Part shown: positions 7,777 through 45,204 of the stretch, piece by piece | Layout of the letters: every line of letters starts with the position of its first letter | How positions within the stretch are numbered: position 1 is the first letter of the stretch | NCBI RefSeq assembly: GCF_010726245.1 | Contig: NZ_AP022561.1 | Coordinates: forward strand, 5,456,001-5,520,000 | DNA: 64,000 bases | Reading direction: 5' to 3' | DNA from: Mycolicibacterium aichiense | Lineage (GTDB): Bacteria; Actinomycetota; Actinomycetes; Mycobacteriales; Mycobacteriaceae | Position numbers and translations under genes: made by a program | Notes under the pieces: model-generated | What the model saw: the letters and a program-made list of their open reading frames with translations, nothing else | Database searches by the model: none | Told to the model about the DNA's origin: nothing

Positions 7777-7854
7777 AATTTCCTCACACTGCGCGAGACC
7801 CTCAGGCCGCGCGCCCCTTCACTGCATCGAACTTCACTGAAACCATCAAGCACG

Positions 7855-9264: not shown

Positions 9265-9373
9265 AATTCCCCTCCCGGATCTGAGCGGCTACGGCCTCGA
9301 GACCGGCAACCTGGTGGCCAGACCAAGATAGCGCCTGTCGCTGTGGCAGTTTGCCGTCGACCCGTAAAGCCCC

Positions 9374-9392
9374 TGGTCACAACTAGTGACCA
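9374..9392. promoter_or_regulatory. Palindromic operator candidate
   Basis: TGGTCAC and GTGACCA form perfect 7-bp arms around aacta in the papA3/pks divergent region. The size and symmetry fit a dimeric regulator site. No regulator gene lies within the glycolipid locus. Confidence 0.45.
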
Positions 9393-9484
9393 AAGGCCCT
9401 GAACAACCGGGTAACGCCTGGCCATGCAGCCCTGGACACCATGGTGAAACCCGCTCGTTCAGCAACGCCCGTGCAATACTGACC

Positions 9485-9521
9485 GTCGGGAGATGAGCCG
9501 GCCGTCGCTGTCGGGAGATGA
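9485..9521 (+). repeat. 12-bp direct repeat upstream of pks
   Basis: GTCGGGAGATGA occurs at 9485-9496 and again at 9510-9521, a 25-bp period. Both copies lie in the region between the divergent starts, about 100-135 bp upstream of the pks start codon. Confidence 0.6.
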
Positions 9522-9619
9522 CCGAGCCGTGGCCGTTCGGAAGTTGTTCCTGGCCCTGACGTGGTCTCCCACGACAGCGCAGCGACACTTCACCGGCCCG
9601 ATGCGGAGAACACAACCTG

Positions 9620-12600
9620 ATGGCACCCACCGAACGTCCGACGCAGCAGACACCCCGTTTCGCAATCATCGGTTACGCGGCTCGTCTTCCCGGAGCTGCG
9701 GACGCGGACCAGTACTGGGAAGTCCTGCACTCCGGTCGGGACGCGATTTCGGAGGTCCCCGCCGATCGGTGGGACGTCGAGGAGTTCTTCGACTCCGACC
9801 CCGACGCGGCGGGCAAGATGGTCACCCGGCGGGCCGGGTTCGTCGACGACGCCACCGGATTCGACGCACCGTTCTTCGGGGTCTCCGCTCGCGAGGCCAA
9901 TCTGATGGACCCGCAGCATCGTCTGCTGCTGGAGACCGCGTGGCGCGCTGTCGAGCACAGCGGCACTGCACCAACGGCTTTGGCGAACACCAGGACCGGC
10001 GTTTTCGTCGGTCTGGCCACCCATGACTTCCTCGGGATGGCGTCCGATGCGCTGACCTATGCCGAGATCGAGGCCTACCTGGCGATCGGCACGTCCAGCG
10101 CGGCCGCCGCGGGCCGGATCAGCTACCGGCTGGGGCTGCAGGGCCCGGCGGTCACCGTCGACACGGCCTGCAGCTCCTCACTGGTGGCGATTCACCAGGC
10201 CTGCCAGGCACTACTGCTGGATGAATGCGATCTGGCGCTGGCCGGCGGGGTGAACGTCATGCTCAGCCCGGCCACCATGATCACGTTCTCGCACTCGCGG
10301 ATGCTGGCCCCCGACGGCAAGTGCAAGACGTTCGACGCCGCCGCCGACGGCTACGTGCGCGGCGAAGGTTGCGGTGTGATCGCCATCAAGCGCCTGGACG
10401 ACGCGCTCCGCGACGGCGACCACATCCGCGCCGTGATCCGCGGCAGTGCGGTCAACTCCGACGGCGCTTCGGGCGGGTTGACGGTGCCCAACGGTGTCGC
10501 CCAACAGCGTGTGATCGCCGAGGCGCTGGATCGCGCAGGCCTGACGCCCACCGACATCAACTATCTGGAAGCCCACGGAACCGGGACGTCACTCGGCGAC
10601 CCCATCGAGGTTCAGGCCGCGGCGGCCGCGCTCGGCAAGGGCCGCGATGCCGGCCAGCCGCTGCTGATCGGCTCGGCGAAGACCAACATCGGCCACCTGG
10701 AGGCCGCCGCGGGCGTGGCAGGCGTCCTCAAGGTCGTGCTGTCGCTCGAGCACTCCGAGCTGCCGCCGCACCTCAACTTCACGAACCCGTCCCCGCACAT
10801 CCCGTGGGACCGGATCCCCGTGCAGGTCGTCGACAAGCTGCGGCCCTGGGAGCGTTCGGAGCGCCCCCGCATCGCCGGCGTCAGTTCGTTCGGATTCTCC
10901 GGCACCAACGCGCACGTGATCCTCGAAGAGGCACCGGTCAGCAGCCCGGTCACTGCCGGTGCAGCGGTGGACGACCGCCGGTTCGCCGTGCTGCCGCTGT
11001 CGGCGCGCACCCCGGCCGCCCTGGTGCAGAGCGCACAGGACTACCGCAGCTGGCTCGGCGAGCACCCCGATGCCACCCTCGCCGACGTGTGCCTGACCGC
11101 CGGAGCGGGCCGGGCGCACTTCGAACACCGCGCCGCGCTGGTGGTCAACTCCGTCGAGTCGGCGCGCGAGCTGCTGGGCGCGCTCGCCGAGGATCTGCCC
11201 GCTCCCGGACTGGTCCGCGGCGACTGCGTCGATGCGCCCAAGACCGCGTGGCTGTTCCCCGGGCAGGGCAGTCAGTACGCCGGCATGGCCCGCGAGCTGT
11301 ACGAGACCGAGCCGGTGTTCGCCGACACCATGAACCGGTGTGCCGAAGCCGTCGCCGGCGTGCTCGAAAAGCCGTTGCTGGACATGGTCTTTGGAACTGG
11401 CCTGAGTGATTCCGATGGCGCCGAGACCCTGAAGCAGACCCGGCACGCCCAGCCCGCGATCTTCGCGGTCGAGATGGGCTTGGCCAGGCTCTGGCAGTCG
11501 TGGGGCTTCGAGCCGGATGTGGTGCTCGGCCACAGCGTCGGTCAGTACTCCGCCGCCTGCGTCGCAGGGGTTTTCAGCCTCGAGGACGGTGCGCGGCTGC
11601 TCGCCGAGCGGGGGCGCCTCTTCGGTGAGTTGCCCGCAGGCGGGCGGATGTGCGCTGTGTTCGCCGACCCGGAACGGGTGGAAAGCCTGACCGACGAGTT
11701 CCCGAGCCTGTCGGTGGCCGCCTACAACGGTGCCAACACCGTGCTGTCGGGACCGGCCGCCGATCTGGAGCGCGCGGTCGCCCAACTGTCGGACGACGGT
11801 GCCCGCTGCGACTGGCTGGATACCAGCCACGCATTCCATTCGTCCCTCCTCGACCCGGCGCTGGATGCGTTCGAGGCCTACGCCGATGGATTCGAATTCG
11901 CAGCGCCGCAGCGGATTCTGGTGTGCAATCGGACCGGGGCGGCGCTCGGTCGCACCGCGAAGCTCGACGGGCAATACTGGCGACGTCACGCGCGGCAGCC
12001 GGTGCAGTTCGCCAAGGGAGTGGCCACGCTGGCCGAACTCGGCTGCGCGTTGCTGCTGGAGGTGGGGCCGCAGCCGGTGCTCACCGCCGCCGCCCTGCGG
12101 GCCTGGCCGGATCCGGCGACCGCACCCAAAGCCGTTGCGTCCCTGCGTCGCAACGGCGCCGACCATCGCCAGTTGATCGAGGCGCTGGCCGGTGCCTATG
12201 TCGCCGGACATGTTCCCGACTTCGGCGCACTGTTGCACGAGCCGGCCCGCAAGCTCGATCTGCCGACGTACCCGTTCCAACATCGCCAGTACTGGTACCA
12301 GAGCAAGCAATCCCAGTCGCCCGCCAGCGATGCCGCGCGCACCGAGGCCGTGCAGCTGCTCGAGGACGGCCGGATCGAGGAACTGGCCGCGCTCTTGGGC
12401 GGGGACGGATCCACCACGGCTGCTGAGGTGCTGAGCAAGCTTGCCGCCCAACACAATCGGCAGCGCAGCGCGCAATCGATCGCCGACATCCGCTACGAGA
12501 TCCGTTGGCAGAAGGCGCTCAGTTCGTCGACCGAGGTCGGCGAGGGCGCAGCGTGGCTGCTGATCGGCGACGACAAAGCCGTGATGGGGCCACTGGTCGA

Positions 12601-30266: not shown

Positions 30267-33200
30267 CTGAGCACGCTCACCGCCGCCTCCCCCGCGGTCC
30301 CGGAGGCGCCCATCACGACCCCGCCGCTATCGCGGCGTTGGCTCTCCTGTGTCTTCCTCGTCGCGCTGGTGTTGTGCTTCGCCCAGTCGCCGGGACTGAT
30401 CTCGCCGGACACCAAGCTCGACCTGACCGCCAACCCGCTGCGGTTCCTCGCCCGCGCGGCCAACCTGTGGAACAGCGACCTGCCGTTCGGGCAGGCGCAG
30501 AACCAGGCGTACGGCTACCTCTTCCCGCACGGGGCGTTCTTCCTGCTCGGCGACACCCTCGGGGTGCCCGGCTGGGTCACCCAGCGGCTGTGGTGGGCGT
30601 TGCTGCTGACCGCCGGATTCTGGGGTTTGTTGCGGGTGGCCGAGGCTCTCGGCATCGGGAGCCGGTCATCACGCATCATCGGTGCTCTGGCGTTCGCCCT
30701 GTCCCCGCGGGTGCTGACGACGCTGGGATCGATCTCATCGGAGACGCTGCCGATGATGCTGGCGCCGTGGGTGCTGCTGCCGGTGATCCTGGCGCTGCGC
30801 GGCGGTGCCGGAGCCGCCGGGCCTGGGACATCGGGCAGAAGCAGATCGCTGCGGATACTGGCGGGCCGGGCCGGTCTGGCGCTGGCGTTGATGGGCGCGG
30901 TCAACGCCGTCGCGACGCTCACCGGCTGCCTGCCCGCGATCATCTGGTGGCTGTGTCACCGGCCCAACCGGGTCTGGCTGCGGTTCAGCGCCTGGTGGGC
31001 GCTGGCCTCGGCGCTGGCGGTCACCTGGTGGGTGGTCGCGCTGCTGCTGCTGGGCCGGATCAGTCCGCCGTTCCTGGACTTCATCGAGTCATCCGGGGTC
31101 ACCACGCAGTGGGCGTCGCTGACCGAGATGCTGCGCGGCACCGACAGCTGGACGCCGTTCGTCTCGCCGAACGCCACCGCCGCGGCCGAGCTGGTGACCC
31201 AACCCGCCATGGTGCTGGCCACCACTCTCGTCGCGGCGGGTGGCATGGCGGGGCTGGCGCTGCGATCGATGCCGGCCCGCGGCCGGCTGATCGTCATGCT
31301 GCTCATCGGTGTGGTGCTGCTGGGCCTCGGCTACTCCGGGGGACTCGGCTCGCCGGTGGCGCAGCACGTGCAAGCCTTCCTCGACGCGGCGGGCGCCCCG
31401 CTGCGCAACGTGCACAAGCTCGAGCCGGTGATCCGTCTTCCGCTGGTGCTGGGGCTGGCACACCTGCTCAGCCGAATCCCGCTGCCCGGCAGCGCGCCGC
31501 GGCCGGTCTGGCTGCGCGCGTTCGCACATCCCGAGAACGACAAACGGGTGGCGGTCGGCATCGTCGTGATGGCCGCGCTCATGGTTGCCACGTCGATGGC
31601 CTGGACCGGCCGGCTCACCCCGCCCGGTGCATTCCGCGCGATCCCGGACTACTGGCACCAGGCGGCGGACTGGCTGACCAAGAACAACACCGGTCAGCCG
31701 ACACCGGGCCGGGTGCTGGTGGTTCCCGGTGCGCCGTTCGCCACCCAGGTCTGGGGCAACAGCCACGATGAGCCGCTGCAGGTGCTCGGCGAAAGCCCTT
31801 GGGGGGTCCGGGATTCCATCCCGCTGACTCCCCCGCAGACGATTCGCGCGCTGGATTCGGTGCAGCGGCTGTTCGCCGCGGGCCGGCCGTCGGCGGGGCT
31901 GGCCGACACGCTGGCCCGCCAGGGCATCTCCTACGTGGTGGTCCGCAACGACCTGGACCCCGACAAGTCGCGCTCGGCCCGCCCGCTGCTGGTGCACCGC
32001 GCCATCGACGGATCGCCGGGTCTGCAGAAGGTGGCACAGTTCGGTGACCCGGTCGGACCGGGCACCCTCGATGGCTTCATCAGCGACAGCGGCCTGCGGC
32101 CGCGCTATCCCGCCGTCGAGATCTATCATGTTGGCGCCCAGGGCAACCCGGCGTCACCATACCTGACCGATGCCAGCCGGATGGCCCGGATAGACGGCGG
32201 TCCCGAGGTGCTGTTGCGCATCGACGAACGCCGCAGGCTGCTCGGGCTGCCCCCGCTCGGCCCGATGCTGCTGACCTCGGACGCCCAGCGTGCCGGGCTT
32301 CCGGTGCCGGTGGTCACCGTGACAGACACCCCCGTCGACCGGGAAACCGACTACGGCCGGGTCGACGATCACTCGTCGGCCGCCCGGGCCGAGGGCGACC
32401 ACCGCAACACCTTCAACCGGGTGCCCGACTACCCGGTTCCCGGTGCCCGGCCCGTCCACGGTGCCTGGACCGGAGGGCGGCTGTCCGCGTCGAGCTCGTC
32501 GTCGGACGCCACCGCGCTGCCCAACGTCGCGCCGGCCAGCGGACCGGCCGCGGCCATCGACGGTGACTCGGCCACCGCGTGGGTGTCCAACTCGTTGCAG
32601 GCCGCGATCGGCCAGTGGCTGCAGGTCGACTTCGACCATCCGGTCACCAATGCGACGCTGACGATCACCCCGAGCGCCACAGCCGTCGGGGCCCAGGTCC
32701 GCAGATTGCAGGTGTCCACCGAAAACGGAACCACCACAGTGCGTTTCGACGAACCGGGCAAACCGCTCACGGTGGCGCTGCCCTACGGCGAGTCGCCGTG
32801 GGTCCGGATCACCGCGATCGGCACCGACGACGGCTCGTCGGGCGTGCAGTTCGGCATCACCGATCTGTCGGTGACCCAGTTCGACGCCTCCGGATTCGCC
32901 CATCCCGTCGACATCAGGCACACCGTCGTCGTGCCCGGCCCGCCGGGTGGGTCTGCGATTGCCGCGTGGGATCTGGGCTCCGAACTGCTCGGCAGGCAAG
33001 GCTGTGCGGATTCCCCCGACGGCGTGCACTGCGCAGCGTCGATGTCGCAGGCTCCCGAGGAACCGGTCACTCTGAGTCGCACGCTGACCGTGCCCAAGCC
33101 GATCGACGTCACCCCGACGGTCTGGGTACGCGCCCGACAGGGACCGCACCTGGCGGACCTCATCGCCCAGCCGGGCACCGTCCGCTCACGCGCCGACGCC

Positions 33201-34583
33201 GACCTGATCGACGTCGACGGATCCGCCTATGCCGCAACCGATGGCGACCCGCGCACCTCGTGGACGGCACCGCAGAACGTCGTGCAGCATCGCAGTGCCC
33301 CCACCCTGACGGTGACCCTCCCGAAGCCGACCGAGGTCACCGGGCTGGTCCTGACCCCGAGTTCGTCGGCGCTGCCGACCCATCCCACAATGGTGGCCGT
33401 CGACCTCGGTGACGGCCCACAGGTGCGCCGGCTGGACGGCGGACCGGAAGCCGGCCCGCAAACCGTGCCGCTGCGTCCGCGGCTGACCGACACCATCGGG
33501 ATCAGCTTGCTGGACTGGAATGACGTGATCGACCGCACCGCATTGGGTTTCGATCAGCTCAAGCCACCAGGACTGGCCGAGGTGGGGGTGTTGGGCCCCG
33601 ACGGCAAGCCCGTCGCCGCGGCAGACGCGGCCGCCAATCGCAAACGCACCATCGAGATCCCCTGTGGCCAGGGACCGATCGTCGCCGTCTCCGGCCGGTT
33701 CGTACAGACCTCGGTGACCACCACCGTCGGCGCCCTGCTGGACGGTGAACCCGTCCCGGCCCGCGCGTGCGACCCGGCGCCGATCGCTCTGCCCGCAGGC
33801 CAGCAGGAGCTGCTGATCAGCCCCGGCTCGGCGTTCGTGGTGGACGGCGTCCAGCTATCCGGCCCACTGGCAAGCCAGATCACCACCGCGGCAACAACTC
33901 CCGCCGACATCACCAGGTGGGGTGCCGACCGCCGGGAGTTCAACGTCAGCCGGGCGCCCACCGCACGCGTACTGGTGGTGCCGGAGAGCGTGAACCCCGG
34001 CTGGGTGGCCCGACTGCCGGACGGGGTCACGCTCACACCGGTCATCGTCAACGGCTGGCAGCAAGGCTGGGTGGTGCCTGCCGGTGAACAGGGCACCGTC
34101 ACGGTCAGCTTCCCGTCCAACCGGTTCTACCGGGTCGGTCTGGCTGTTGGCCTGTCCCTGCTGCCGCTGCTCCTGCTGCTGACGCTGGTGCCGCCGCGAC
34201 GGCCGACGACGGCGTACGAGCCGGCCCGGCCCAGGGCCGTCCCCCTGCTGGCCGGCGCCGGGGTGCTGGCCGCCGGTGGCTTGATCGCGGGCGTGGGCGG
34301 GCTGGCGGTGTTCGGGACCGCGATGCTGCTCGGCTACCTGCTACGAGGCCGGGCCCTGCTACGCGACCGGCTGACGTTGGCAGCCAGTGCCTGCGGGCTG
34401 ATCGCCGCGGGCGCGCTGCTTTCGCGCTACCCGTGGCGATCCGTCGACGGCTACATCGGCCACTCCCCCTGGGTCCAGCTGCTGGCGCTGATCGCAGTGG
34501 GTGCACTGGCCGCCTCCGCCATACGTCCTCGACCGCCCCGAACTGACAGCGAAACCACCGAGGACACAAGCATTTCCCGTTAG
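30267..34583 (+). CDS. aftD: Arabinofuranosyltransferase AftD
   Basis: A very large GT-C enzyme (about 1400 aa). Multiple membrane spans in the first 400 residues carry the donor-binding LISPDTKLDLTANP loop with its acidic residue. Two carbohydrate-binding/discoidin-like regions follow (for example ASGPAAAIDGDSATAWVS and YAATDGDPRTSWTAP), and more spans close the C-terminus. AftD adds alpha-arabinofuranose from decaprenyl-phosphoarabinose to arabinogalactan/lipoarabinomannan. The first ATG/GTG in frame is GTG 30369, which would cut into the first membrane span. The frame is open back to 30237 with only a CTG at 30267, one base after the upstream stop, so I annotate that start with low certainty. 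Confidence 0.9.
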   Translation: MSTLTAASPAVPEAPITTPPLSRRWLSCVFLVALVLCFAQSPGLISPDTKLDLTANPLRFLARAANLWNSDLPFGQAQNQAYGYLFPHGAFFLLGDTLGVPGWVTQRLWWALLLTAGFWGLLRVAEALGIGSRSSRIIGALAFALSPRVLTTLGSISSETLPMMLAPWVLLPVILALRGGAGAAGPGTSGRSRSLRILAGRAGLALALMGAVNAVATLTGCLPAIIWWLCHRPNRVWLRFSAWWALASALAVTWWVVALLLLGRISPPFLDFIESSGVTTQWASLTEMLRGTDSWTPFVSPNATAAAELVTQPAMVLATTLVAAGGMAGLALRSMPARGRLIVMLLIGVVLLGLGYSGGLGSPVAQHVQAFLDAAGAPLRNVHKLEPVIRLPLVLGLAHLLSRIPLPGSAPRPVWLRAFAHPENDKRVAVGIVVMAALMVATSMAWTGRLTPPGAFRAIPDYWHQAADWLTKNNTGQPTPGRVLVVPGAPFATQVWGNSHDEPLQVLGESPWGVRDSIPLTPPQTIRALDSVQRLFAAGRPSAGLADTLARQGISYVVVRNDLDPDKSRSARPLLVHRAIDGSPGLQKVAQFGDPVGPGTLDGFISDSGLRPRYPAVEIYHVGAQGNPASPYLTDASRMARIDGGPEVLLRIDERRRLLGLPPLGPMLLTSDAQRAGLPVPVVTVTDTPVDRETDYGRVDDHSSAARAEGDHRNTFNRVPDYPVPGARPVHGAWTGGRLSASSSSSDATALPNVAPASGPAAAIDGDSATAWVSNSLQAAIGQWLQVDFDHPVTNATLTITPSATAVGAQVRRLQVSTENGTTTVRFDEPGKPLTVALPYGESPWVRITAIGTDDGSSGVQFGITDLSVTQFDASGFAHPVDIRHTVVVPGPPGGSAIAAWDLGSELLGRQGCADSPDGVHCAASMSQAPEEPVTLSRTLTVPKPIDVTPTVWVRARQGPHLADLIAQPGTVRSRADADLIDVDGSAYAATDGDPRTSWTAPQNVVQHRSAPTLTVTLPKPTEVTGLVLTPSSSALPTHPTMVAVDLGDGPQVRRLDGGPEAGPQTVPLRPRLTDTIGISLLDWNDVIDRTALGFDQLKPPGLAEVGVLGPDGKPVAAADAAANRKRTIEIPCGQGPIVAVSGRFVQTSVTTTVGALLDGEPVPARACDPAPIALPAGQQELLISPGSAFVVDGVQLSGPLASQITTAATTPADITRWGADRREFNVSRAPTARVLVVPESVNPGWVARLPDGVTLTPVIVNGWQQGWVVPAGEQGTVTVSFPSNRFYRVGLAVGLSLLPLLLLLTLVPPRRPTTAYEPARPRAVPLLAGAGVLAAGGLIAGVGGLAVFGTAMLLGYLLRGRALLRDRLTLAASACGLIAAGALLSRYPWRSVDGYIGHSPWVQLLALIAVGALAASAIRPRPPRTDSETTEDTSISR

Positions 34584-34593
34584 GGTGTCACCC

Positions 34594-35583
34594 ATGACAG
34601 AGCCGTCACAGGTCGACACCGTGCGAGGCCCGGTCTCGACCAGCGACCTGGGTGTGGTGTTCATGCACGAACACGTCTTCATCCTGTCGCAGGAAATCAT
34701 GGCCAACTATCCCGAAGGCTGGGGTGACGGCGACGCCCGCGAAGCCGACGCCGTCACCAAGCTCAACGAGCTGAAGGCACTCGGGGTGGACACCATCGTC
34801 GATCCGACGGTCATCGGACTGGGCCGCTACATTCCGCGCATCCAGCGGGTGGCCGCACAGACCGACCTCCAGATCGTGGTGGCCACCGGGATCTACACCT
34901 ACAACGACGTCCCGATGTACTTCCACTTCAGCGGCCCGGGAACACTGCTGGAGGGTCCGGAGATCATGACCGAACTGTTTGTCCGCGACATCACCGAGGG
35001 AATCGCCGACACCGGCGTCAAAGCGGGAATCCTCAAGTGCGCCACCGACGAACCAGGCGTAACCCCGGGGGTCGAGCGAGTGTTGCGTGCGGTCGCCCAG
35101 GCGCACAAGCAGACCGGGGTGCCGATCACCACCCACACGCACGCCATGAGCCGACGCGGTCTCGAGCAGCAACGCATCTTCGCCGAAGAGGGCGTCGACC
35201 TGAGCCGGGTGATCATCGGGCACAGCGGCGACACCACCGACCTGGGCTACCTCGAGGAGCTGATCGCCGCGGGCTCCTATCTCGGCATGGACCGGTTCGG
35301 CCTGGACGGCTTCCTGCCCTTCGACGACCGCGTCGACACCGTCGTGCGGATGTGCGAACGCGGGCACGCCGACAAGATGGTGCTGTCCCACGACGCGTCC
35401 TGCTACATCGACTGGCTGCCGGAGGAGGTCATTCCGGTGGCCATGCCCAACTGGCATTTCCGGCACATCCACAACGATGTGCTTCCCGCGCTACGCCGGC
35501 GCGGGGTGACCGACGAACAGATCACCACCATGCTGGTGGACAACCCCCGCGCCATTTTCGCCAAGCAAGGTGCCTATGAGTGA
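34594..35583 (+). CDS. php: Phosphotriesterase-like lactonase (Php)
   Basis: A 329-aa amidohydrolase-fold enzyme with the full metal-binding set: HEH at residues 25-27, the lysine that is usually carboxylated (K148 in GILKCATDE), His in TTHTHA and IIGHSGDT, and Asp in LSHDASCYIDW. Such PLL enzymes hydrolyse lactones, including acyl-homoserine or hydroxy-fatty-acid lactones, with weak organophosphate activity. It corresponds to Rv0230c (Php). The start is 11 bp after the aftD stop, and its end overlaps the next gene by 8 bp, so the lactonase and the ligase are translationally linked. Confidence 0.88.
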   Translation: MTEPSQVDTVRGPVSTSDLGVVFMHEHVFILSQEIMANYPEGWGDGDAREADAVTKLNELKALGVDTIVDPTVIGLGRYIPRIQRVAAQTDLQIVVATGIYTYNDVPMYFHFSGPGTLLEGPEIMTELFVRDITEGIADTGVKAGILKCATDEPGVTPGVERVLRAVAQAHKQTGVPITTHTHAMSRRGLEQQRIFAEEGVDLSRVIIGHSGDTTDLGYLEELIAAGSYLGMDRFGLDGFLPFDDRVDTVVRMCERGHADKMVLSHDASCYIDWLPEEVIPVAMPNWHFRHIHNDVLPALRRRGVTDEQITTMLVDNPRAIFAKQGAYE

Positions 35584-37043: not shown

Positions 37044-38015
37044 TCAGCCCTTCGCAGTCTCCTGCCAGGCGCGGGCCGCAACCAGCTCGGGCACCAACAC
37101 TTCGGTCAGCAGCCGCACATCGTCGTGGTCGTCGCCGGGGTAACGGACCTCGAGCCGGGCCCCCGGCACGGTGTCGCCGACCCCGACAACGGTGGTGCCG
37201 CGCAACGTCGTCCACTCCGCCATCTGGTCCTCCCACTCCGAGCCGGCGAACACCAGCATCCGGTAGTCGGTGGTCTTGGTGAGGTAGACGTCGACATGGC
37301 TCCAGTCACCGGTCTCACAGCCGACGGCAGGACGGCGCGGCCCCTCGCGCAGCATCAGCGCACCCTGCTGCGCAGAGCAGAATCGGTGGGCCGGTGCGAC
37401 CAGGTGAGTGCCCGTCGGCCCGAGCAGCGCGTCGGCCACCTCGGGACGCCAGGCCGCCTCGGTGTCGAGCAGGTGCGCGCTCGCCTCCGCCGCTGTCGCG
37501 ATCGACGCGACCAGGCCGGCGGTGTCGTGCCCGGACAGGTGCAGCTCGAGCGCCATGAGCAGTGCCAGCGTGTGCTGATAGCTGCGGCAGGCCACCCCGC
37601 CGCGCTCGGGCTCAGCGGCCAAATCGACTACGGCGGAGCATGATTCGGTGATGGACGATCCTGCAGTGTTGGTCAGCGCCACCGTGGTGACCCCGGCGGG
37701 CAGCCGGCTCAGCGCATCCAGTGTCTCCGCCGAACCTCCCGTCGCCGAGGTTGCCACCACCAGGGTGCCCGGTCCCCAGGCCGGCAGCAGACGCGTGGAC
37801 GCCAACTCCGAGGCCGCGAGAAACCCGTGCGCCCGCAACCGCGCGGCCGCGATGGCCCCGGCGTAGGCGGAGGACCCCATGCCGAGGAACACCACCCGTT
37901 CCGTGGTGGCCGGATCGACTGCCGCCCAGGGATTGTCGGCGCCGATGCGCTCGGCGAGCCGAGACAGCACCTCGGGCTTACGGGCCAGGTCCGAGGCAAA
38001 GCCGTCAGGGTCCAC
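37044..38015 (-). CDS. SIS-domain sugar-phosphate isomerase/deaminase-like protein
   Basis: A 323-aa protein with two SIS (sugar isomerase) folds. Phosphosugar-binding motifs are FLGMGSSAYAG and VATSATGGSAETLDALS, in the arrangement of GlmS isomerase halves and of AgaS/FrlB-like proteins. The GTG start (38015) follows AAGGGA and lies 11 bp inside the end of the kinase gene; a longer frame upstream is a shadow of that gene. Pairing with a glucosamine-kinase-like enzyme suggests it acts on an amino-sugar phosphate. Residues for a precise reaction cannot be assigned by eye. Confidence 0.8.
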   Translation of the reverse strand: MDPDGFASDLARKPEVLSRLAERIGADNPWAAVDPATTERVVFLGMGSSAYAGAIAAARLRAHGFLAASELASTRLLPAWGPGTLVVATSATGGSAETLDALSRLPAGVTTVALTNTAGSSITESCSAVVDLAAEPERGGVACRSYQHTLALLMALELHLSGHDTAGLVASIATAAEASAHLLDTEAAWRPEVADALLGPTGTHLVAPAHRFCSAQQGALMLREGPRRPAVGCETGDWSHVDVYLTKTTDYRMLVFAGSEWEDQMAEWTTLRGTTVVGVGDTVPGARLEVRYPGDDHDDVRLLTEVLVPELVAARAWQETAKG

Positions 38016-39216
38016 CGGCGATCCCTTCGTCGAGCAACATGGGTAGGGCGGTCTCGGGGACGTACATCCAGCGCGGCAGATGCCGTGCCGCGTAGACGAC
38101 TTCCCGTAACACCTGCTGCAGGCGGAATGCTCGCAGACAGGCCGGATCGTACAACTCGCCGTGCCCCAGTGCGGCCAGGTGTGTGGCGTAGCTGCGGGTG
38201 AAGCGATCACGGGCCAGCCGTTCGACCCTGGCCAACGCTTGCTCGTCGACGCGGTGGTGGCGGCGGGCGACGATCGCCGCGTGGGTCAACGACTGCGCCA
38301 ACCCGGCGACGTCGAGGACGGCCGGGATCGGCAGGACCCGCTCGGCGGGCGGCAGCACCGGGTTGCCGTCGAAATCGATGACCGCGTAGCCGCCGGGATG
38401 CCGCAGCACCTGGCCGACATGCAGATCACCATGACCCTCGATCACCGCGGTGCCGGCCATTGCGCCGAGATCGGCCAGAATCTCATTGATCGCCCGGCTA
38501 TCGAGAAGATCCCGGAGCGCCGGATCAGCCTGCGCCCGAGCCTCATCCAGAGTCGCTACTGCCGCCGCCCGCCACCGCTGCGCGTCGGCGGGTGAGGCGA
38601 TGGTCGCGGTGGACGCCAGCGCGGCGTGCAGTTCGGCGATCACAGCGCCGACATCAGCGGCCGCTGCCATCAGCTCGTCCGCCGGGGCACCGGGAGCGGC
38701 AGCCGCCGCCGCGATCAGGTCCACCGCCCACGTCCACCCGTCGACGGCACCGGGCAGATACTCGTCGACGCCGGCCACCAGCGTCTGCGCGCCGTCCTCG
38801 GATCGCCAGGTGACCAGCCCCCACGGGCACGGCATATGACGAAAGCCATTGGCGCGCAACAGCTCGATCCGGCGGGGTGCCGGATGAGGGCCGGCCAGCA
38901 GATGTGCGGCCCACTTCACCACCGCCGCGTCACCCACGATCACCGACTCGTTGGTCTGATCCACGGTGATCGCCCGCTCGCCCGCCGCGACCCGTGCCGA
39001 CCACGAGTGCACGGTGAAAGATCCGATCTCGGACACCCCCGGCGCCGCCACCAGTAGCGCGAGCAGCGCCTCGGCGACACCGTCGCCGGGCCGGGCCCGC
39101 CGCCACGACCCGTCGGAGTCGCGGACCTGCGGTTCGGCGGTCAACCCGTCCGCGGTCGTGACGATCGAAAGTCGTTTCCCACCAATCAGATCCAGTGAGT
39201 CGAGGTCACCGCTCAC
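38005..39216 (-). CDS. Maltokinase-fold sugar kinase, glucosamine-kinase-like
   Basis: A 403-aa kinase of the aminoglycoside-phosphotransferase/maltokinase fold. The N-terminal cap-like domain is followed by the VKW lysine strand (about 100-102), a hinge near GVDEYLPGA, the catalytic loop GHGDLHVGQ (His262, Asp264) and the metal-binding DFD (281-283). Actinobacterial proteins of this type have been shown to phosphorylate glucosamine and are often encoded with SIS proteins and glycosyltransferases, as here. Maltokinase is the main alternative, but no trehalose synthase or GlgE-pathway gene is nearby. It starts at GTG, 4 bp after the glycosyltransferase stop. Confidence 0.78.
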   Translation of the reverse strand: MSGDLDSLDLIGGKRLSIVTTADGLTAEPQVRDSDGSWRRARPGDGVAEALLALLVAAPGVSEIGSFTVHSWSARVAAGERAITVDQTNESVIVGDAAVVKWAAHLLAGPHPAPRRIELLRANGFRHMPCPWGLVTWRSEDGAQTLVAGVDEYLPGAVDGWTWAVDLIAAAAAAPGAPADELMAAAADVGAVIAELHAALASTATIASPADAQRWRAAAVATLDEARAQADPALRDLLDSRAINEILADLGAMAGTAVIEGHGDLHVGQVLRHPGGYAVIDFDGNPVLPPAERVLPIPAVLDVAGLAQSLTHAAIVARRHHRVDEQALARVERLARDRFTRSYATHLAALGHGELYDPACLRAFRLQQVLREVVYAARHLPRWMYVPETALPMLLDEGIAGGP

Positions 39217-39220
39217 GTGG

Positions 39221-40543
39221 TCAGCCTGACGTGCTGTCGCGATTCCGGTGCTGCAGACCCACCTGCTCGATGACGTCGGCGCCGACGCGCAGGCCGTCCC
39301 GGGCCCGGATCGCCGCGCCGATGTCGGCCAGCCGGTCGCGTAGCTCGGTGTCGGCGAGGATCGTGTCCACAGCCGCGATGAGCTCCTCGTCGCGGAAGGC
39401 ATACGTGTCGAGCCGCACACCGAAGCCGAGTTCGTCTACGCGCTGGGCATTTTCGTACTGGTCCCAGAACAGCGGCAGCACGATCAGCGGCTTGCCGAAG
39501 TGCAGGGTCTCGGTCACCGTGTTGTTGCCGCCGTGCGAGATGACCAGATCAACCTGCGGGATGACCTTTGTCTGCGGCAACATCTGCTCGCCGACCATGT
39601 TGTCGGCCAACGTGATCCGATCCGCCTGCGGGCCCTTGCTCACGATGTACCGGTGCTCGGTCTTGGCCAGCACGTCGACCAGCCGCTGCATGAGTTGCAC
39701 GTCGGCGCCGCCCAGCGATCCCAGCGACAGATAGATCAACGCGCTGGACTCCGGCCGGTCGGCCAGCGATGCGGGCAGCTCGTACTCCGCGTCGGTCTCC
39801 CGGACACTGGAATCCATCCGCGTCCAGCTGTCGCCGAGCGGGCGTGCGTCGACATAGTCGGCCTCGGCCGGATAGACGTAGAGATTGGCGGCGTTGTCCC
39901 GCGGCATGAACTCCAGATCCGGCAGCGGGCCGGCACCGTGGCGCTGAACCCACGAGTTGAAGTCGGACCACATCGCACGATGGGTGCGGTCGAACTCGGC
40001 CCGGTAGGCGTCCCACTGCGTGGGGTCGGCACTGGGCAGGCCGGAGAACGGCGGCGGCACGTTCGGTCCTGGCACTTCGAGCGGGCTGCACGACACGATC
40101 CGCACGAACGGCGCGCCTGCACTCACCAACGCCGGGAACAGCACCACGTTGTCTTCGACGATCACGTCGGGCTGATGCTCAGCCACGATCTCCTGCAGCC
40201 GCGGCTCGCAATATTTGGCGCCGTCGATGAGCGCCTGATACGTCGGCTGGATGAAAGTTTCGAGCTGCGAAACGGTCGGCTTGCGAAATTCCGGGGCGGT
40301 CTCGGCGATGAAGTCCGTCCAGAATTTGCCGGGATCCTCGTCGGCGGCACCCTCAGCGGGTTCGGCGAGATCGACCAATTCTTCGGTGAAGCCCAGTGCC
40401 GCGAGTTTGCCCGCCCAGGAGCTCTCGGCGGCAAACACAATGCGATGGCCGCGGTCCTGCAGGATCGCGGCCAGACCGATGCACTGATTCGTGGGACCGT
40501 AGGCCGACTCGGGCCAGAACATGACAGTCAACGGCTCGGTCAT
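39221..40543 (-). CDS. GT1-family glycosyltransferase (UGT/MGT-like)
   Basis: A 440-aa GT-B enzyme. The N-terminal acceptor domain begins MTEPLTVMFWPESAYGPTNQ. The C-terminal donor domain has LGSLGG and the nucleotide-sugar signature ISHGGNNTVTETLHFGKP...PLFWDQYENA. Such enzymes glycosylate small lipophilic acceptors such as macrolides, sterols or phenolics. ATG 40543 follows GAAGGGA. It heads a leftward three-gene operon with the sugar kinase and SIS protein, which might supply an amino-sugar donor. The product is unknown. Confidence 0.82.
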   Translation of the reverse strand: MTEPLTVMFWPESAYGPTNQCIGLAAILQDRGHRIVFAAESSWAGKLAALGFTEELVDLAEPAEGAADEDPGKFWTDFIAETAPEFRKPTVSQLETFIQPTYQALIDGAKYCEPRLQEIVAEHQPDVIVEDNVVLFPALVSAGAPFVRIVSCSPLEVPGPNVPPPFSGLPSADPTQWDAYRAEFDRTHRAMWSDFNSWVQRHGAGPLPDLEFMPRDNAANLYVYPAEADYVDARPLGDSWTRMDSSVRETDAEYELPASLADRPESSALIYLSLGSLGGADVQLMQRLVDVLAKTEHRYIVSKGPQADRITLADNMVGEQMLPQTKVIPQVDLVISHGGNNTVTETLHFGKPLIVLPLFWDQYENAQRVDELGFGVRLDTYAFRDEELIAAVDTILADTELRDRLADIGAAIRARDGLRVGADVIEQVGLQHRNRDSTSG

Positions 40544-40801
40544 CACAATCCCTTCGGCAGCCAACGTCTTCGGCACAGATCTTCGCTCACCAGGCGGGCC
40601 CGGCACGGGGCGCCCGGCGGGAGAGCATCACATCCTGGTGGCAAATATTACGGAGGGCGCAACCGGGGGACCGTTTCGACGTCATGCCAGCTAACGTCGC
40701 TATCGGAAGGACTTCCGCGCTGCCGTGTTCCACACGGCCGGCGACCCGCGGTACTGCGTGACTTCGGTGGGAGCGCAACACCTGCTACTGCCGGAGGCAC
40801 G

Positions 40802-42430
40802 ATGGACAACGACAGCCCACTCGTCGTCGAGTCGTCCGTCGAGGAGGCCTGGGCCGCGGTGCCGCACCCCGTCGTGGTCGTCGACGACTGCGGGATCGTC
40901 ACCGCGATGAGTTCCGCAGCCGCCTCGGTCCTGCCCGACGCCGTTGTCGGAGCGCCACTGGCCGGTCACGCGCCGTCGTGGTTTGTCGACCTCTGCAGCC
41001 GGCAGAGCGGGCAGGTGCCCAGGTCGCTGGAGGACCGCGAGTTCGACGCGCAGCCCACGGTGCTGCCGGGCGGCCACATCGCGTGGTGGCTGATCGGTGA
41101 CCCGCACCGCTCGCTGCAGCGAGCCGAAGCCGCGTTGCACCGGGAACGCACGCACGCCGCATTCCTCGACGAGGCCTCCGCCGTGCTGACCGTCTCGCTC
41201 AATGTCGAGCGGTGTATGGCGGCGACAGCACGGATGGCCGCCCGGCACCTGGCCGATGCCGCCGTCGTGGTCGGCCCCCTGTCGGCGGGTGTGCTTCCGG
41301 TGTTCTGCACCGGCCAGGACGGCGAAGTCGAACAACGACACGTCGAGGCCGATCCCGCTGCGGTGTCCGGGCTCGGCGAGGCGTTGCGCGGATTTCCTCC
41401 GGTCCCGTCGCGCTGGATTGATCCGGCGACCATCCCGGCGTGGATGGTCCCGCAGAATTTCCAGGGACCCGTCGGTTCGATCGTCATCACTCCGCTGCCC
41501 GGCCACGGCATCCCGGCGGGCGCACTGGTGTTGCTGCGCCGGACCACCCACGCCGCGTTCAGCGAAGGCGAGGAACTTCTGGCCAGGTTGTTCGCCGCCA
41601 GGGCGGGCACCGCGTTGTCGGCGGCGCGGCTGTACGCCGAACAGTCCGACATCACCCACACCCTGATGCGCGATCTGTTGCCGCCGCAACTGCACCGCAT
41701 GCACGGTTTCGAACTCGCGGGACGCTATCGGGCATCCGAGGACCACCACCTGATCGGCGGTGACTTCTACGACGTCCATCCCGCAGCCACTCCCGAGGCC
41801 GAGACACTCGTCGTGTTGGGCGATGTCTGCGGCAAGGGTCTGCAAGCCGCGGTGCTGACCGGCAAGATCCGCAACACCCTGCAGGCGTTGGCTCCGCTGG
41901 CCGAACACCACGAAGGCGTGTTGAAACTGCTCAACAGCGCTCTGCTCTCACCGGACAACAGCCGCTTCGCCACCATGGTGCTGGCCTCGATCTCCCACGT
42001 GGACGGTCAGCTGCGGTTGCGGTTGACCTGCGCGGGCCATCCGGCGCCGCTGATCGCGCGCAGCGACGGCACGGTCGAGACCGCGGACACTCGCGGCATG
42101 CTCGTCGGCGCCCTTCCCACGTTCCGGGCGCGGTCATTCGAGACGACCCTGGCGCCCGGCGAGACATGCCTGCTCTACACCGACGGCATCACCGAAGCGC
42201 GGGGCGGCCCGCTGGGCACCGACCTGTACGGCGAGGAGCGACTGGCGGCGGCGTTCGCCGAGTGCGCGGGGATGCCGGCCGAAGCAGTGGTCGAACGGAT
42301 CATGATGCTGACCTCGCAGTGGGTGGACCGGTTACCGCACGATGACATCGCCGCGGTCGCCATCACCGCCCCGCGCCGCAACCATCTGTCCGCCGTCGAC
42401 GGGCACACCGCCGGGCGGTACACCGCGTGA
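40802..42430 (+). CDS. RsbU-type PP2C phosphatase with PAS and GAF sensor domains
   Basis: A 542-aa signalling phosphatase. Residues 15-105 look PAS-like (PVVVVDDCGIVTAMSSAA), 120-270 GAF-like, and 300-525 form a SpoIIE/PP2C domain with its metal-binding aspartates intact: GGDFYDV, LGDVCGKGLQAAVL, LLYTDGITEAR and DDIAAVAI. RsbU-type phosphatases dephosphorylate a STAS antagonist so that it can sequester an anti-sigma kinase. The likely substrate is the STAS protein two genes downstream. GGAGG precedes the ATG. The stop overlaps the next start in GTGA. Confidence 0.9.
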   Translation: MDNDSPLVVESSVEEAWAAVPHPVVVVDDCGIVTAMSSAAASVLPDAVVGAPLAGHAPSWFVDLCSRQSGQVPRSLEDREFDAQPTVLPGGHIAWWLIGDPHRSLQRAEAALHRERTHAAFLDEASAVLTVSLNVERCMAATARMAARHLADAAVVVGPLSAGVLPVFCTGQDGEVEQRHVEADPAAVSGLGEALRGFPPVPSRWIDPATIPAWMVPQNFQGPVGSIVITPLPGHGIPAGALVLLRRTTHAAFSEGEELLARLFAARAGTALSAARLYAEQSDITHTLMRDLLPPQLHRMHGFELAGRYRASEDHHLIGGDFYDVHPAATPEAETLVVLGDVCGKGLQAAVLTGKIRNTLQALAPLAEHHEGVLKLLNSALLSPDNSRFATMVLASISHVDGQLRLRLTCAGHPAPLIARSDGTVETADTRGMLVGALPTFRARSFETTLAPGETCLLYTDGITEARGGPLGTDLYGEERLAAAFAECAGMPAEAVVERIMMLTSQWVDRLPHDDIAAVAITAPRRNHLSAVDGHTAGRYTA

Positions 42431-43485
42431 TCAGTGCGACCGTCCAGGATCAGCTCTGGGCCGCCGTTCTGGCCGGCGATGAGTATGCCGCGGCGGCAAC
42501 GGCTTTGGCGGCCATCGATGCCGGGATGACACCCGAGGACGTTCTGCTCGACGTGGTGGCGCCGGTGCAGTGCCGCATCGGCGCGGAGTGGGCGGCCAAC
42601 CGGCTCTCGGTGACCGAGGAGCATTCCGCGACCGCGATCAACGACCGGGTGATCGCGACGCTGGCCCACCACCCGGCACACCGCGGCGATGAGGAAGCCG
42701 GCCGCGTCACGGTGGCCTGTGTGGACGGCGAATGGCACGTGTTGCCGGCCCGATTGCTCGCCGAGGTTCTGCGGCTGCGGGGATGGCGGGTCGACTTCCT
42801 GGGCGCCCAGGTCCCCACCCCACACCTGATCGCCCACCTGCATCGGCACGGCCCCGACGCCGTCGCGCTGTCCTGCTCGATCCCCAGCCGTCTTCCGCTC
42901 GCGCACGCAGCGATCACCGCGTGCCAAGCAGCCGGTGTCTCCGTGTTGGCCGGCGGCGCCGCCTTCGGCCCCCAAGGTCGCTATGCCTTCCAACTCGGCG
43001 CCGACGGCTGGGCACCGGATGCTCGCGGGGCGGCCGATGTCCTCCGTCGCGGGCTGCGTCCTGCCCGGACCTTTGGTGGTCAGCAGTTCGACTTCGGTCT
43101 TCCGCACCTGGCCGACCAGGAGTACACCTTCGTCAACGAGACGGCCGCCGAACTGGTCCGCGCCACCGTGGCAGAGCTGACGCACTGCATCCCGGATATG
43201 CAGTCCTACAGCGATTTTCAGCGTCAGAACGCGACTGTCGACGTCGCCCACACCGTCGATTTCCTGGCCGCCGCCCTCTACACCGACGACGACGAGCTGT
43301 TCGAACGGTTCATCGCCTGGACTGCCGGGATACTGACCGCGCGTGGGGTTTCGGCCCTGGTGCTGGCGCGGTCGTTGGAGGTGCTGGCCGTCCGGCTCCA
43401 CGATTTTCCCCGTGCCCGACGAATCCTGTGTAATGCCCTGAGCACCCTGGCCCAACCGGCCACCGACCCCTCACTGATGCCATGA
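42427..43485 (+). CDS. Cobalamin-binding sensor protein with CarH-type Wx9EH motif
   Basis: A 352-aa protein with three parts. Residues 1-90 form a helical cap with W55, nine residues, then E65-H66, the Wx9EH signature of the adenosylcobalamin photoreceptors CarH/LitR. Residues 93-210 form the B12-binding Rossmann domain with E102-W-H104-V-L-P (ExHxx with the usual Gly replaced by Pro), a serine motif LSCS and the GG pair at 176-177. Residues 215-352 form a helical domain I do not recognise. CarH has a MerR DNA-binding head; here it is absent, so output must be by protein contact. Overlaps of 4 bp on both sides tie it to the phosphatase and STAS genes. Confidence 0.82.
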   Translation: MISATVQDQLWAAVLAGDEYAAAATALAAIDAGMTPEDVLLDVVAPVQCRIGAEWAANRLSVTEEHSATAINDRVIATLAHHPAHRGDEEAGRVTVACVDGEWHVLPARLLAEVLRLRGWRVDFLGAQVPTPHLIAHLHRHGPDAVALSCSIPSRLPLAHAAITACQAAGVSVLAGGAAFGPQGRYAFQLGADGWAPDARGAADVLRRGLRPARTFGGQQFDFGLPHLADQEYTFVNETAAELVRATVAELTHCIPDMQSYSDFQRQNATVDVAHTVDFLAAALYTDDDELFERFIAWTAGILTARGVSALVLARSLEVLAVRLHDFPRARRILCNALSTLAQPATDPSLMP

Positions 43486-43847
43486 ACCTGACATTGACCA
43501 CCGACACTCCGCAGTCGGCGTGCGTCCGCCTGTCCGGAGACCTCGACTTCGTCTCCTCGCCGCAGCTCCTCGACACGGTGTCCGAACTGTTGGCCGACAA
43601 CGGCAGACTCCGGCACCTGCACCTGGACTTCGGCGGCGTGACGTTCTGCGACTCCGCCGGCCTGGCGGCCCTGATCGTCATCGAGCGCCACACCGCCGAG
43701 GCCGATGTCCGGCTGCACCTGGACCACCGCCCGTCGCAGCTCGACCGGATCCTGGACGTCACCGGGCTGCTGGCGCACTTCACCGAGCCGCGGCCCGAGG
43801 TCGGGCAATCATCGTCCGAGGGCACGCAGGACGAAACCGTCGGCTGA
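43482..43847 (+). CDS. STAS-domain anti-anti-sigma factor
   Basis: A 121-aa SpoIIAA/RsbV-like protein. The STAS core includes VRLSGDLDFVSSPQL and the phosphorylation site CDSAGLAAL with Ser58 in D-S-x-G-L. Unphosphorylated proteins of this family bind an anti-sigma kinase and release the sigma factor. The start overlaps the stop of the cobalamin-binding gene (ATGA). A short acidic C-terminal tail follows the domain. No anti-sigma kinase or sigma gene is present in the window, so the partner must be encoded elsewhere. Confidence 0.9.
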   Translation: MNLTLTTDTPQSACVRLSGDLDFVSSPQLLDTVSELLADNGRLRHLHLDFGGVTFCDSAGLAALIVIERHTAEADVRLHLDHRPSQLDRILDVTGLLAHFTEPRPEVGQSSSEGTQDETVG

Positions 43848-43855
43848 CGCCCCGG

Positions 43856-45034
43856 TCAGTGCGCGACGGCCGGTTCCGGTGCATCGCTGACCGAACTGTC
43901 CAGCGGCGGCACCGGTTCCTTACCTCGATACTCCCAGCGCCGCAACGCATTCCGACACGGGGATTCGATCAGGGCATAGCTGACCGCCGCCATCGCGAAG
44001 CCCAGCACCAGCGTCAACACCAGCGTCACGATCAGGTTGCCGTTGAACATGAACCGGCCGACCATCGGGAACACCATCACCAGTGCCGCCAGATGCCACA
44101 CGAACAGCCCGTAGGACCACCGGCCGAGGGTGACCATGAACCGGCTGCCCAGAATCGGGTGGCCGGTGTCGGGCCGGTCGAGCACCAGCGGTGCCAGCAG
44201 CGCACCGGCGACGATCGCCCCCATCGACGTTCGGATCACGAACTGCCCCAGTGTGGCCGGAACCAGGTCCTTCGGACCGGCCAGCGGTGACGCCGAGATC
44301 AGATAGGCGGTCAGCGCGATACCGGTGATGGCCCAGCGGTTCCGGGCCAGTCTGTGCGCCCAGCCCAGCGGGCTGACCGTCCACTCCGCCAGCAGCATGC
44401 CCGCGGCGAACCAGGAGGCGTAGGCCGGCGGCCAGTTCAGGAAGTTGACCCCCTGCACGGTGTGAATCGGCAGCAGACCCCAGCCGAGGCTGGCCAGCGC
44501 GACCGCCGCGATCACCGGCACCCGTGCGCGCACCGGCAACCGTCGGGCCGCAAACGCCAGGATCGGCAGCGCGAGGTAAAAGCTCACCTCGACCGAGAGG
44601 CTCCACATCTGGGTCAGCCCCGCGGTCAGCGTGAGCGGGACATAGACCTGGGTCAGCGTGAGGTTGGCCCACCACACCGTCCAGCTGGCGTGGTTGGCCT
44701 CCGGCAGCAGCGTCAGGATGACGACGACCGCCACCACATATCCGGGCATGATGCGCACCAGCCGTGAACGCAGGTAGTGCCCGGTCGGCGGGCGGTGGCG
44801 CAGTCCCCGGGCCGCGGCGGCGTGTCCACGCCACAGCAGGAAACCGGAGAGCGCGAAGAACACCGCGACAGCCAGGTCGAAGCGGTGCAGCAGGCGTCCG
44901 ACCACGGCGCCGGTGGTGCCGGTCTGGAACGCGACGTGAGTGAGCACCACTCCCATGGCGGCACACGCGCGCATGCCCTCCACCGCGGGCAGGAAGCCGC
45001 GGGTGCCTCCGACCCGCTCCGCCTCCGTCGTCAT
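43856..45034 (-). CDS. Acyltransferase-3 family membrane protein (Rv0228-like)
   Basis: A 392-aa polytopic protein with about ten membrane spans. The N-terminal EGMRACAAMGVVLTHVAF carries the family histidine; FFALSGFLLWRG, YLRSRLVRIMPGY and MWSLSVEVSFYLALP follow. The family O-acylates sugars or glycolipids on the cell surface. The ATG at 45034 begins MTTEAERVGG; a longer frame would extend into the upstream promoter. It is convergent with the STAS gene (8 bp apart) and divergent from the DUF3068 gene. Substrate unknown. Confidence 0.85.
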   Translation of the reverse strand: MTTEAERVGGTRGFLPAVEGMRACAAMGVVLTHVAFQTGTTGAVVGRLLHRFDLAVAVFFALSGFLLWRGHAAAARGLRHRPPTGHYLRSRLVRIMPGYVVAVVVILTLLPEANHASWTVWWANLTLTQVYVPLTLTAGLTQMWSLSVEVSFYLALPILAFAARRLPVRARVPVIAAVALASLGWGLLPIHTVQGVNFLNWPPAYASWFAAGMLLAEWTVSPLGWAHRLARNRWAITGIALTAYLISASPLAGPKDLVPATLGQFVIRTSMGAIVAGALLAPLVLDRPDTGHPILGSRFMVTLGRWSYGLFVWHLAALVMVFPMVGRFMFNGNLIVTLVLTLVLGFAMAAVSYALIESPCRNALRRWEYRGKEPVPPLDSSVSDAPEPAVAH

Positions 45035-45204
45035 GAGTGCCAGTGTGCGCCGGACACGCGTCCTCCGCGAAAGTGGGTACACCTGGCCTGCGGTGGCGAC
45101 CTCCTAATGAACCGGTGCCTTGGGCTGGGCTGTTAGGGTCGAACCGGTTTGCTTCGTCGTCAGGCGGGGTGCGGCACGATCGGCAGTGAGGAGGCCACGG
45201 CAGC

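Follow-up and report, generated by a model that had tools for sequence, protein, structure and literature searches.

Photocobilins, in which a CarH-like B12 domain is followed by a globin-like bilin domain, have had their photochemistry demonstrated by Zhang et al. (2024, Nat Commun, PMC10979010). In the accessible text of that paper, STAS, SpoIIE and PP2C proteins are proposed as partners of SasPcob, a stand-alone photocobilin, on the basis of gene neighbourhood and STRING networks, and the function of stand-alone photocobilins is called less clear. The window considered here is the whole 64,000-nucleotide stretch of Mycolicibacterium aichiense DNA (contig NZ_AP022561.1, positions 5,456,001 to 5,520,000), and the system in question is an operon of three genes on its forward strand, which encode a PP2C phosphatase, a cobalamin-binding protein and a STAS anti-anti-sigma protein. 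The operon is a real and well-conserved system; its mechanism can be drawn sharply, but in conditional terms, as a light-gated partner switch in which a photocobilin would act on the phosphatase and, through it, on the STAS protein, an anti-sigma kinase and a SigF-type sigma factor. The probability of this reading is estimated at about 0.7.

Gene 1 (40802..42430, 542 amino acids) encodes the phosphatase, which is of the SpoIIE-RsbU type and combines PAS-like, GAF-like, helical-linker and PP2C parts, gene 2 (42427..43485, 352 amino acids) the cobalamin-binding protein, and gene 3 (43482..43847, 121 amino acids) a STAS protein of the RsbV/SpoIIAA type. The stop of gene 1 overlaps the start of gene 2 in a GTGA (42427..42430), and the stop of gene 2 overlaps the start of gene 3 in an ATGA (43482..43485). 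Pfam matches over cut-off were obtained for SpoIIE/PP2C in gene 1, for B12-binding_2 and B12-binding in gene 2 and for STAS in gene 3. A preliminary description, made from the letters alone, had reported these overlaps together with W55, E65-H66 and E102-x-H104-x-x-P107 in gene 2 and Ser58 in the STAS protein, and all of them lie where it placed them. As both the motifs and the gene order are kept in homologues, the three-gene arrangement is not a matter of chance.

The photocobilin encoded by gene 2

Judged by sequence comparison and a predicted structure, gene 2 is a stand-alone photocobilin, closest to the crystallised SasPcob of Saccharothrix. Its best sequence matches in the PDB were SasPcob (8J2X and 8J2W; E-values 3.7e-83 and 3.9e-83) and AbPcob (8J2Y), the SasPcob match spanning residues 4-341 of gene 2 and residues 5-334 of 8J2X. 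The AlphaFold2 (AF2) model, built with 42 homologues (pLDDT 89.5, pTM 0.86), was matched by Foldseek to 8J2X with TM scores of 0.88/0.91 and 46 % identity over 343 columns, and likewise to 8J2W, whereas the CarH rows covered only about 200 columns. The comparison with CarH that the preliminary description had proposed thus finds a CarH-like B12 domain within a protein that 8J2X matches over nearly its full length. That description had regarded the protein as CarH minus its DNA-binding head, with an unrecognised C-terminal domain (215-352); neither point is retained, since residues ~226-342 correspond to the globin-like bilin domain that photocobilins carry. No helix–turn–helix family was found in gene 2 with Pfam, B12-binding_2 begins already at residue 7, and the NCBIfam CarH equivalog scored 52.5 bits against a cut-off of 400. 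A CarH relic was ruled out by the missing DNA-binding head and the extra bilin domain. A corrinoid methyltransferase carrier was also considered and ruled out, as such families score far below their cut-offs.

The four-helix B12-binding_2 domain (PF02607; residues 7-79, 42445..42663) holds W55 (42589..42591), the counterpart of SasPcob W61, which stacks on the adenosyl group, and E65-H66 (42619..42624), the counterpart of E71-H72, which provides a dimer/adenosyl contact in SasPcob. It is followed by the Rossmann B12-binding domain (PF02310; residues 92-200, 42700..43026) with the E102-x-H104-x-x-P107 motif (42730..42747), in which H104 corresponds to H108, the lower cobalt ligand of SasPcob; alignment to SasPcob also pairs H133 with H137. 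The photoglobin (globin-like bilin-binding) domain (residues 226-342, 43102..43452) is assigned by its sequence and fold match to photocobilins. Within it, D272 (43240..43242) corresponds to D270, the key bilin ligand of SasPcob, in a multiple alignment, the pairwise phmmer row having placed a gap opposite D270, and W298 (43318..43320) corresponds to W296, which in SasPcob contacts the bilin D ring and the corrin. According to the accessible text of PMC10979010, D270 is the main biliverdin ligand of SasPcob and is replaced by His in the weak binder AbPcob. Gene 2 would therefore be expected to bind both chromophores and, as it carries a bilin-binding photoglobin domain, should sense bilin-absorbed light besides green light.

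Conservation was assessed in two overlapping collections. One comprised 80 named loci, from 80 of 432 relatives, found by six peptide patterns (E102 and H104 fall within one of these patterns, so that their conservation is partly built in); the other was a search of 198 genomes of the genus with the whole gene 2 protein, and 15 of the 80 named loci repeat loci of that search. Residues were counted in 95 distinct homologues of gene 2 from 110 loci. W55, E65, H66, E102, H104, P107 and W298 were invariant in all 95, including the four residues (W55, E65, H66 and H104) whose variation the preliminary description had regarded as fatal to its proposal, and D272 was kept in 93, L005 having Glu and L002 having Thr at this position. 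The PP2C aspartates were kept in 110 of 110 loci and STAS Ser58 in 99 of 102 homologues (exceptions L095, L106 and L111).

These counts also bear on the possibility that the sensor reads adenosylcobalamin (AdoCbl) supply or redox state, its photochemistry being incidental. Many actinobacteria spend most of their life in the dark, which would suit such a sensor, and the binding pocket overlaps the light motifs, so that conservation alone cannot separate the two functions. On the other hand, the residues of AdoCbl photochemistry (W55, E65-H66, H104) are invariant, and the bilin aspartate, for which a plain B12 sensor has no need, is nearly so; a supply sensor is thus considered unlikely.

Gene order and the probable partner of the photocobilin

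A search for the same gene order, suggested in the preliminary description, found it widely conserved. The 80 named relatives include Mycobacterium, Mycolicibacterium, Streptomyces, Nocardia, Amycolatopsis, Saccharothrix, Actinomadura and Nonomuraea, those closest to the window being Mycobacterium/Mycolicibacterium, and in the 80 a PP2C gene lies directly upstream of the photocobilin in 80 of 80 cases and a STAS gene downstream in 73. With start codons set by script, a 4-bp overlap joins PP2C to photocobilin in 48 of the 80 and photocobilin to STAS in 63 of the 73. In the genus, a close form of gene 2 was found in 41 of the 198 genomes, a second form (31-44 % identical) in 33 and both in nine, the 'ortholog' and 'paralog' classes being assigned by eye from identity. 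Ortholog loci were examined in 29 of the 40 other genomes, and both PP2C and STAS neighbours were present in all 29. A search of 396 genomes across the phylum showed that the full-length form extends far outside the genus, although its matches also included shorter ones to the B12 domain; of 30 loci examined there, counting that of the window itself, 12 had a PP2C match.

The seven relatives without a downstream STAS gene are four Nocardia and three Streptomyces. In all four Nocardia loci the STAS gene lies upstream of PP2C, and in three of them a HATPase_c_2 gene of the RsbW type, over the Pfam cut-off, lies between the two; the copy in L075 looks interrupted. The genes for STAS, RsbW-type HATPase, PP2C and photocobilin stand in a row in L082, L089 and L104 (~7270-11130), an apparently complete switch. 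Another HATPase gene was found within the flanks of 18 of the 80 loci, 17 of which are from Streptomyces.

The same genome, a single contig (C1) of 5.93 Mb that contains the window and was subjected to the whole-genome profile searches, holds a second photocobilin-PP2C pair (L002/L133, C1:1885926-1888644), in which an overlapping GAF-like PP2C gene lies upstream. This second photocobilin keeps the W, EH and H residues, with Thr in place of the bilin Asp and Arg in place of H133. Its STAS gene (L133:7789-8145) is divergent, lies 54 bases from the PP2C gene on its far side and adjoins a type 2 isopentenyl diphosphate (IPP) isomerase gene; FtsY-like genes also lie beyond it. Thirteen of the 33 second-form loci in the genus were examined, including the one in this genome, and all 13 had PP2C beside the photocobilin, while seven had a divergent STAS gene and six the isomerase and FtsY-like genes. 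The isomerase neighbour hints at an isoprenoid or carotenoid output of the second photocobilin. In L181 (5584-8885), a mycobacterium, the second-form photocobilin and PP2C are accompanied by a divergent STAS gene and then a HATPase gene, apparently a complete set.

The target of the photocobilin might instead be the STAS protein, which it could, for instance, sequester. The photocobilin-STAS overlap is commoner than the PP2C-photocobilin overlap, and a STAS gene lies close to the second photocobilin of the genome as well. Nevertheless, the upstream PP2C gene is the more regular neighbour of the photocobilin among the named relatives, as it is beside the second form, where the STAS gene is divergent and on the far side of PP2C; in Nocardia, STAS is likewise away from the photocobilin, whereas PP2C and photocobilin stay together. 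Across both photocobilin forms and Nocardia, the phosphatase is therefore the most constant partner, with STAS close behind, which points to PP2C rather than STAS as the direct target and makes a primary action on STAS distinctly unlikely.

The phosphatase itself has a predicted architecture into which such an input could fit. The AF2 model of gene 1 (pLDDT 84.3, pTM 0.55) runs through a PAS-like block (residues ~13-100, 40838..41101), a helix, a GAF-like block (residues ~135-255, 41204..41566), a long helix (residues 255-291, 41564..41674) and the PP2C domain (residues ~300-524, 41699..42373), to which Pfam assigned a SpoIIE/PP2C match at residues 332-522. The long helix is a candidate signalling linker into the phosphatase by analogy with RsbU, in which, according to the accessible text of PMC12143880, a linker helix of this kind becomes ordered, and the phosphatase is switched, when the partner binds. 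Matches of the PP2C domain include Rv1364c (3KE6), SiaA, SpoIIE and RssB. The PAS-GAF-PP2C assignment of the preliminary description therefore stands for the PP2C domain and its catalytic aspartates (D321, D341, D461, D514 and D515), while PAS and GAF are weaker by sequence: in gene 1 itself GAF was matched at E=0.034, below the Pfam cut-off, and among 35 homologues, at E<=0.05, 26 showed GAF and each PAS model appeared in seven at most. The topology of the AF2 model agrees with both blocks, the fold check of which is minimal, the list of structural matches being filled by the PP2C domain.

The phosphatase might accordingly answer mainly to a PAS/GAF ligand of its own (redox, heme or oxygen), with the photocobilin as an accessory or dampener, a reading that is compatible with the light-gated switch. 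The presence of the PAS-like and GAF-like blocks speaks for it, as does a weak phmmer match of the GAF-like block to DevS (9e-4), while the photocobilin adjoins the phosphatase in every named relative. As those 80 relatives were all selected by their photocobilin, phosphatases without one lie outside that comparison. This alternative is regarded as doubtful.

Beyond the three genes, no neighbour common to most of the 80 loci was found with a simple gene caller, the next plausible clusters comprising 19 and 12 loci. In 11-12 named mycobacterial loci (e.g. L044 and L048) the module appeared, by eye, near wag31/DivIVA- and ftsZ-like genes. In the window, the operon is flanked on the opposite strand by a glycosyltransferase-like gene (39221-40606) and an acyltransferase gene (43856-45082); the AftD-type arabinofuranosyltransferase (30369-34583), phosphotriesterase-family (34501-35583) and APH-family kinase-like (38005-39420) genes further away are ordinary neighbours.

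Proposed switch, candidate outputs and chromophores

In the proposed light-gated switch, a photocobilin dimer would hold AdoCbl, and a bilin, in the dark. Green or bilin-absorbed light would cleave the cobalt-carbon bond, the adenosyl group would be released and the dimer would open; the changed photocobilin could then act on the N-terminal PAS/GAF/helical-linker part of the phosphatase and switch its activity. The phosphatase would dephosphorylate Ser58 of the STAS protein (43653..43655), the expected phosphorylation site in a D-S-x-G motif, and the dephosphorylated protein would bind an RsbW-type anti-sigma kinase encoded elsewhere, so freeing a SigF-type sigma factor. By this route the operon would probably allow light to activate stress genes. 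What the analysis establishes is the protein family, the fold, the kept residues and the constant order of the genes; chromophore binding, photochemistry, the contact between photocobilin and phosphatase, the sign of the light effect and the sigma factor are inferred from them. Action on a separate enzyme has a precedent, as the accessible text of PMC10979010 reports that SasPcob and the isolated AbPcob domain altered a cyclase's activity in trans in vitro.

Gene 3 matched PF13466/PF01740 and TIGR00377 (58 bits against a cut-off of 53.45), and the remaining components may be supplied from elsewhere in the genome, which contains seven SpoIIE-type phosphatase domains and 21 HATPase_c_2 matches, candidate RsbW-type kinases of which many are probably ordinary sensor kinases. 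Two sigma factors exceed the SigB/F/G cut-off and are candidate outputs of the operon. The gene in front of SigF (L129) overlaps it by 4 bases and matches the RsbW type weakly (PF13581, 31.6 bits against 27.4), and the second, SigF-like sigma factor (L131; C1:4927218-4928519) is convergent with a PAS-PP2C gene. Elsewhere, GAF-PP2C, STAS and HATPase genes lie in a row (L128, C1:2227500-2234500), an RsbU-V-W type system without a photocobilin, and one open frame of 1379 amino acids (C1:2165505-2168219) joins SpoIIE and HATPase_c_2, possibly an Rv1364c-like fusion. With several candidate sigma factors and switches in the genome, tying the operon to SigF is a guess.

Several observations weigh against the light-gated switch. 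The operon in the window contains no kinase or sigma gene, and GTTT-N14-18-GGGTA, a SigF-type promoter consensus, had 0 matches in the whole window, so that there is no sign of SigF control over the operon. No PP2C match was found within ~1.5 kb of the distant full-length photocobilins L146-L156, and the pairing is thus not universal in the photocobilin family. The PAS/GAF part of the phosphatase could carry another signal. In SasPcob without biliverdin, according to the accessible text of PMC10979010, the effect of light had the opposite sign, so light may switch the system off as well as on. Finally, profile searches found no canonical heme oxygenase (PF01126) in the genome.

In the genus, canonical heme oxygenase does not track the module, occurring in 13 of 41 genomes with it against 52 of 157 without (Fisher p = 1.0). 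The genome does encode an MhuD-type enzyme (L171, C1:513627-513950), whose best matches in the PDB include 3HX9 ('Protein Rv3592', 2.9e-55) and 6PLE ('Heme oxygenase (mycobilin-producing)', 2.1e-54). Such an enzyme was found in 196 of the 198 genus genomes, the two misses being 72 % and 87 % complete and without either photocobilin form. According to the accessible text of PMC8801480, MhuD yields mycobilins, which absorb near 340 and 550-565 nm, together with a small amount of biliverdin. As an MhuD-type enzyme is present and a canonical heme oxygenase is not, mycobilin is a possible chromophore, and it may be suggested, tentatively, that in mycobacteria the module feeds light into a SigF-type general stress response with MhuD-made mycobilin rather than biliverdin as the second chromophore. 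If so, this version would be a two-chromophore photoreceptor with a colour range unlike that of SasPcob.

The photoreceptor of classical photochromogenicity was also considered as a role for the module and was not supported. The accessible text of PMC9861118 ties light-driven carotenogenesis in M. kansasii to the MarR regulator CrtR and reports that a crt locus fragment rendered M. smegmatis photochromogenic. The named relatives, a list cut at 80 of 432, include M. vaccae and M. scrofulaceum but neither M. kansasii nor M. marinum. In the genome of M. aichiense, profile searches found no TIGR03462 lycopene cyclase domain and two PF00494 matches.

Comparison with known systems

The preliminary description had joined a B12 photoreceptor to an RsbU-RsbV switch. 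Homology, fold, conservation and gene order support the joining; the reading of the sensor as a headless CarH does not stand, and the combination has a precedent, since STAS, SpoIIE and PP2C had already been proposed as SasPcob partners. The main text of PMC10979010, without supplements, contains no mention of mycobact-, mycobilin, MhuD or heme oxygenase, and literature searches, drawing in part on partial texts, returned no experiments on the operon and no mycobacterial report, although it may be listed in Schneider et al. 2022. To this the present analysis adds the conservation of the module in mycobacteria, a second pair of photocobilin and PP2C genes in the same genome, accompanied by a divergent STAS gene, two SigF-type sigma factors as candidate outputs and an MhuD-type enzyme without canonical heme oxygenase.

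In mycobacteria and other Actinomycetota, the stand-alone form shares a conserved and translationally coupled operon with a phosphatase and the protein presumed to be its substrate, to which Nocardia adds a kinase, and whether light alters phospho-STAS dephosphorylation becomes a question for a direct in vitro assay. The light-gated switch, if true, would give many actinobacteria, mycobacteria included, a defined path by which light reaches a stress sigma factor, and would constitute a ready two-colour optogenetic phosphatase switch.

Among described systems, SasPcob (8J2W/8J2X) and AbDPcob (8J2Y) share the domain order of gene 2; SasPcob also shares its key residues and stand-alone form, and the bilin Asp present here is absent in AbDPcob. 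The present locus differs from both in its three-gene overlapping operon and in its mycobacterial host without a PF01126 heme oxygenase. By its photocobilin match, the C-terminal domain of gene 2 belongs to the photoglobins (Schneider et al. 2022, as cited in the accessible texts of PMC10979010 and PMC10151467). The CarH/LitR AdoCbl photoreceptor repressors have the same B12 domain, with Wx9EH and ExH motifs, whereas gene 2 lacks their MerR DNA-binding head and carries the photoglobin domain in addition. The RsbU-RsbV-RsbW and SpoIIE-SpoIIAA-SpoIIAB systems and Rv1364c share with the operon the full PP2C aspartate set and the STAS phospho-serine motif; here, by contrast, the kinase is not part of the operon, and a photocobilin takes the place of RsbT or the stressosome as the input.

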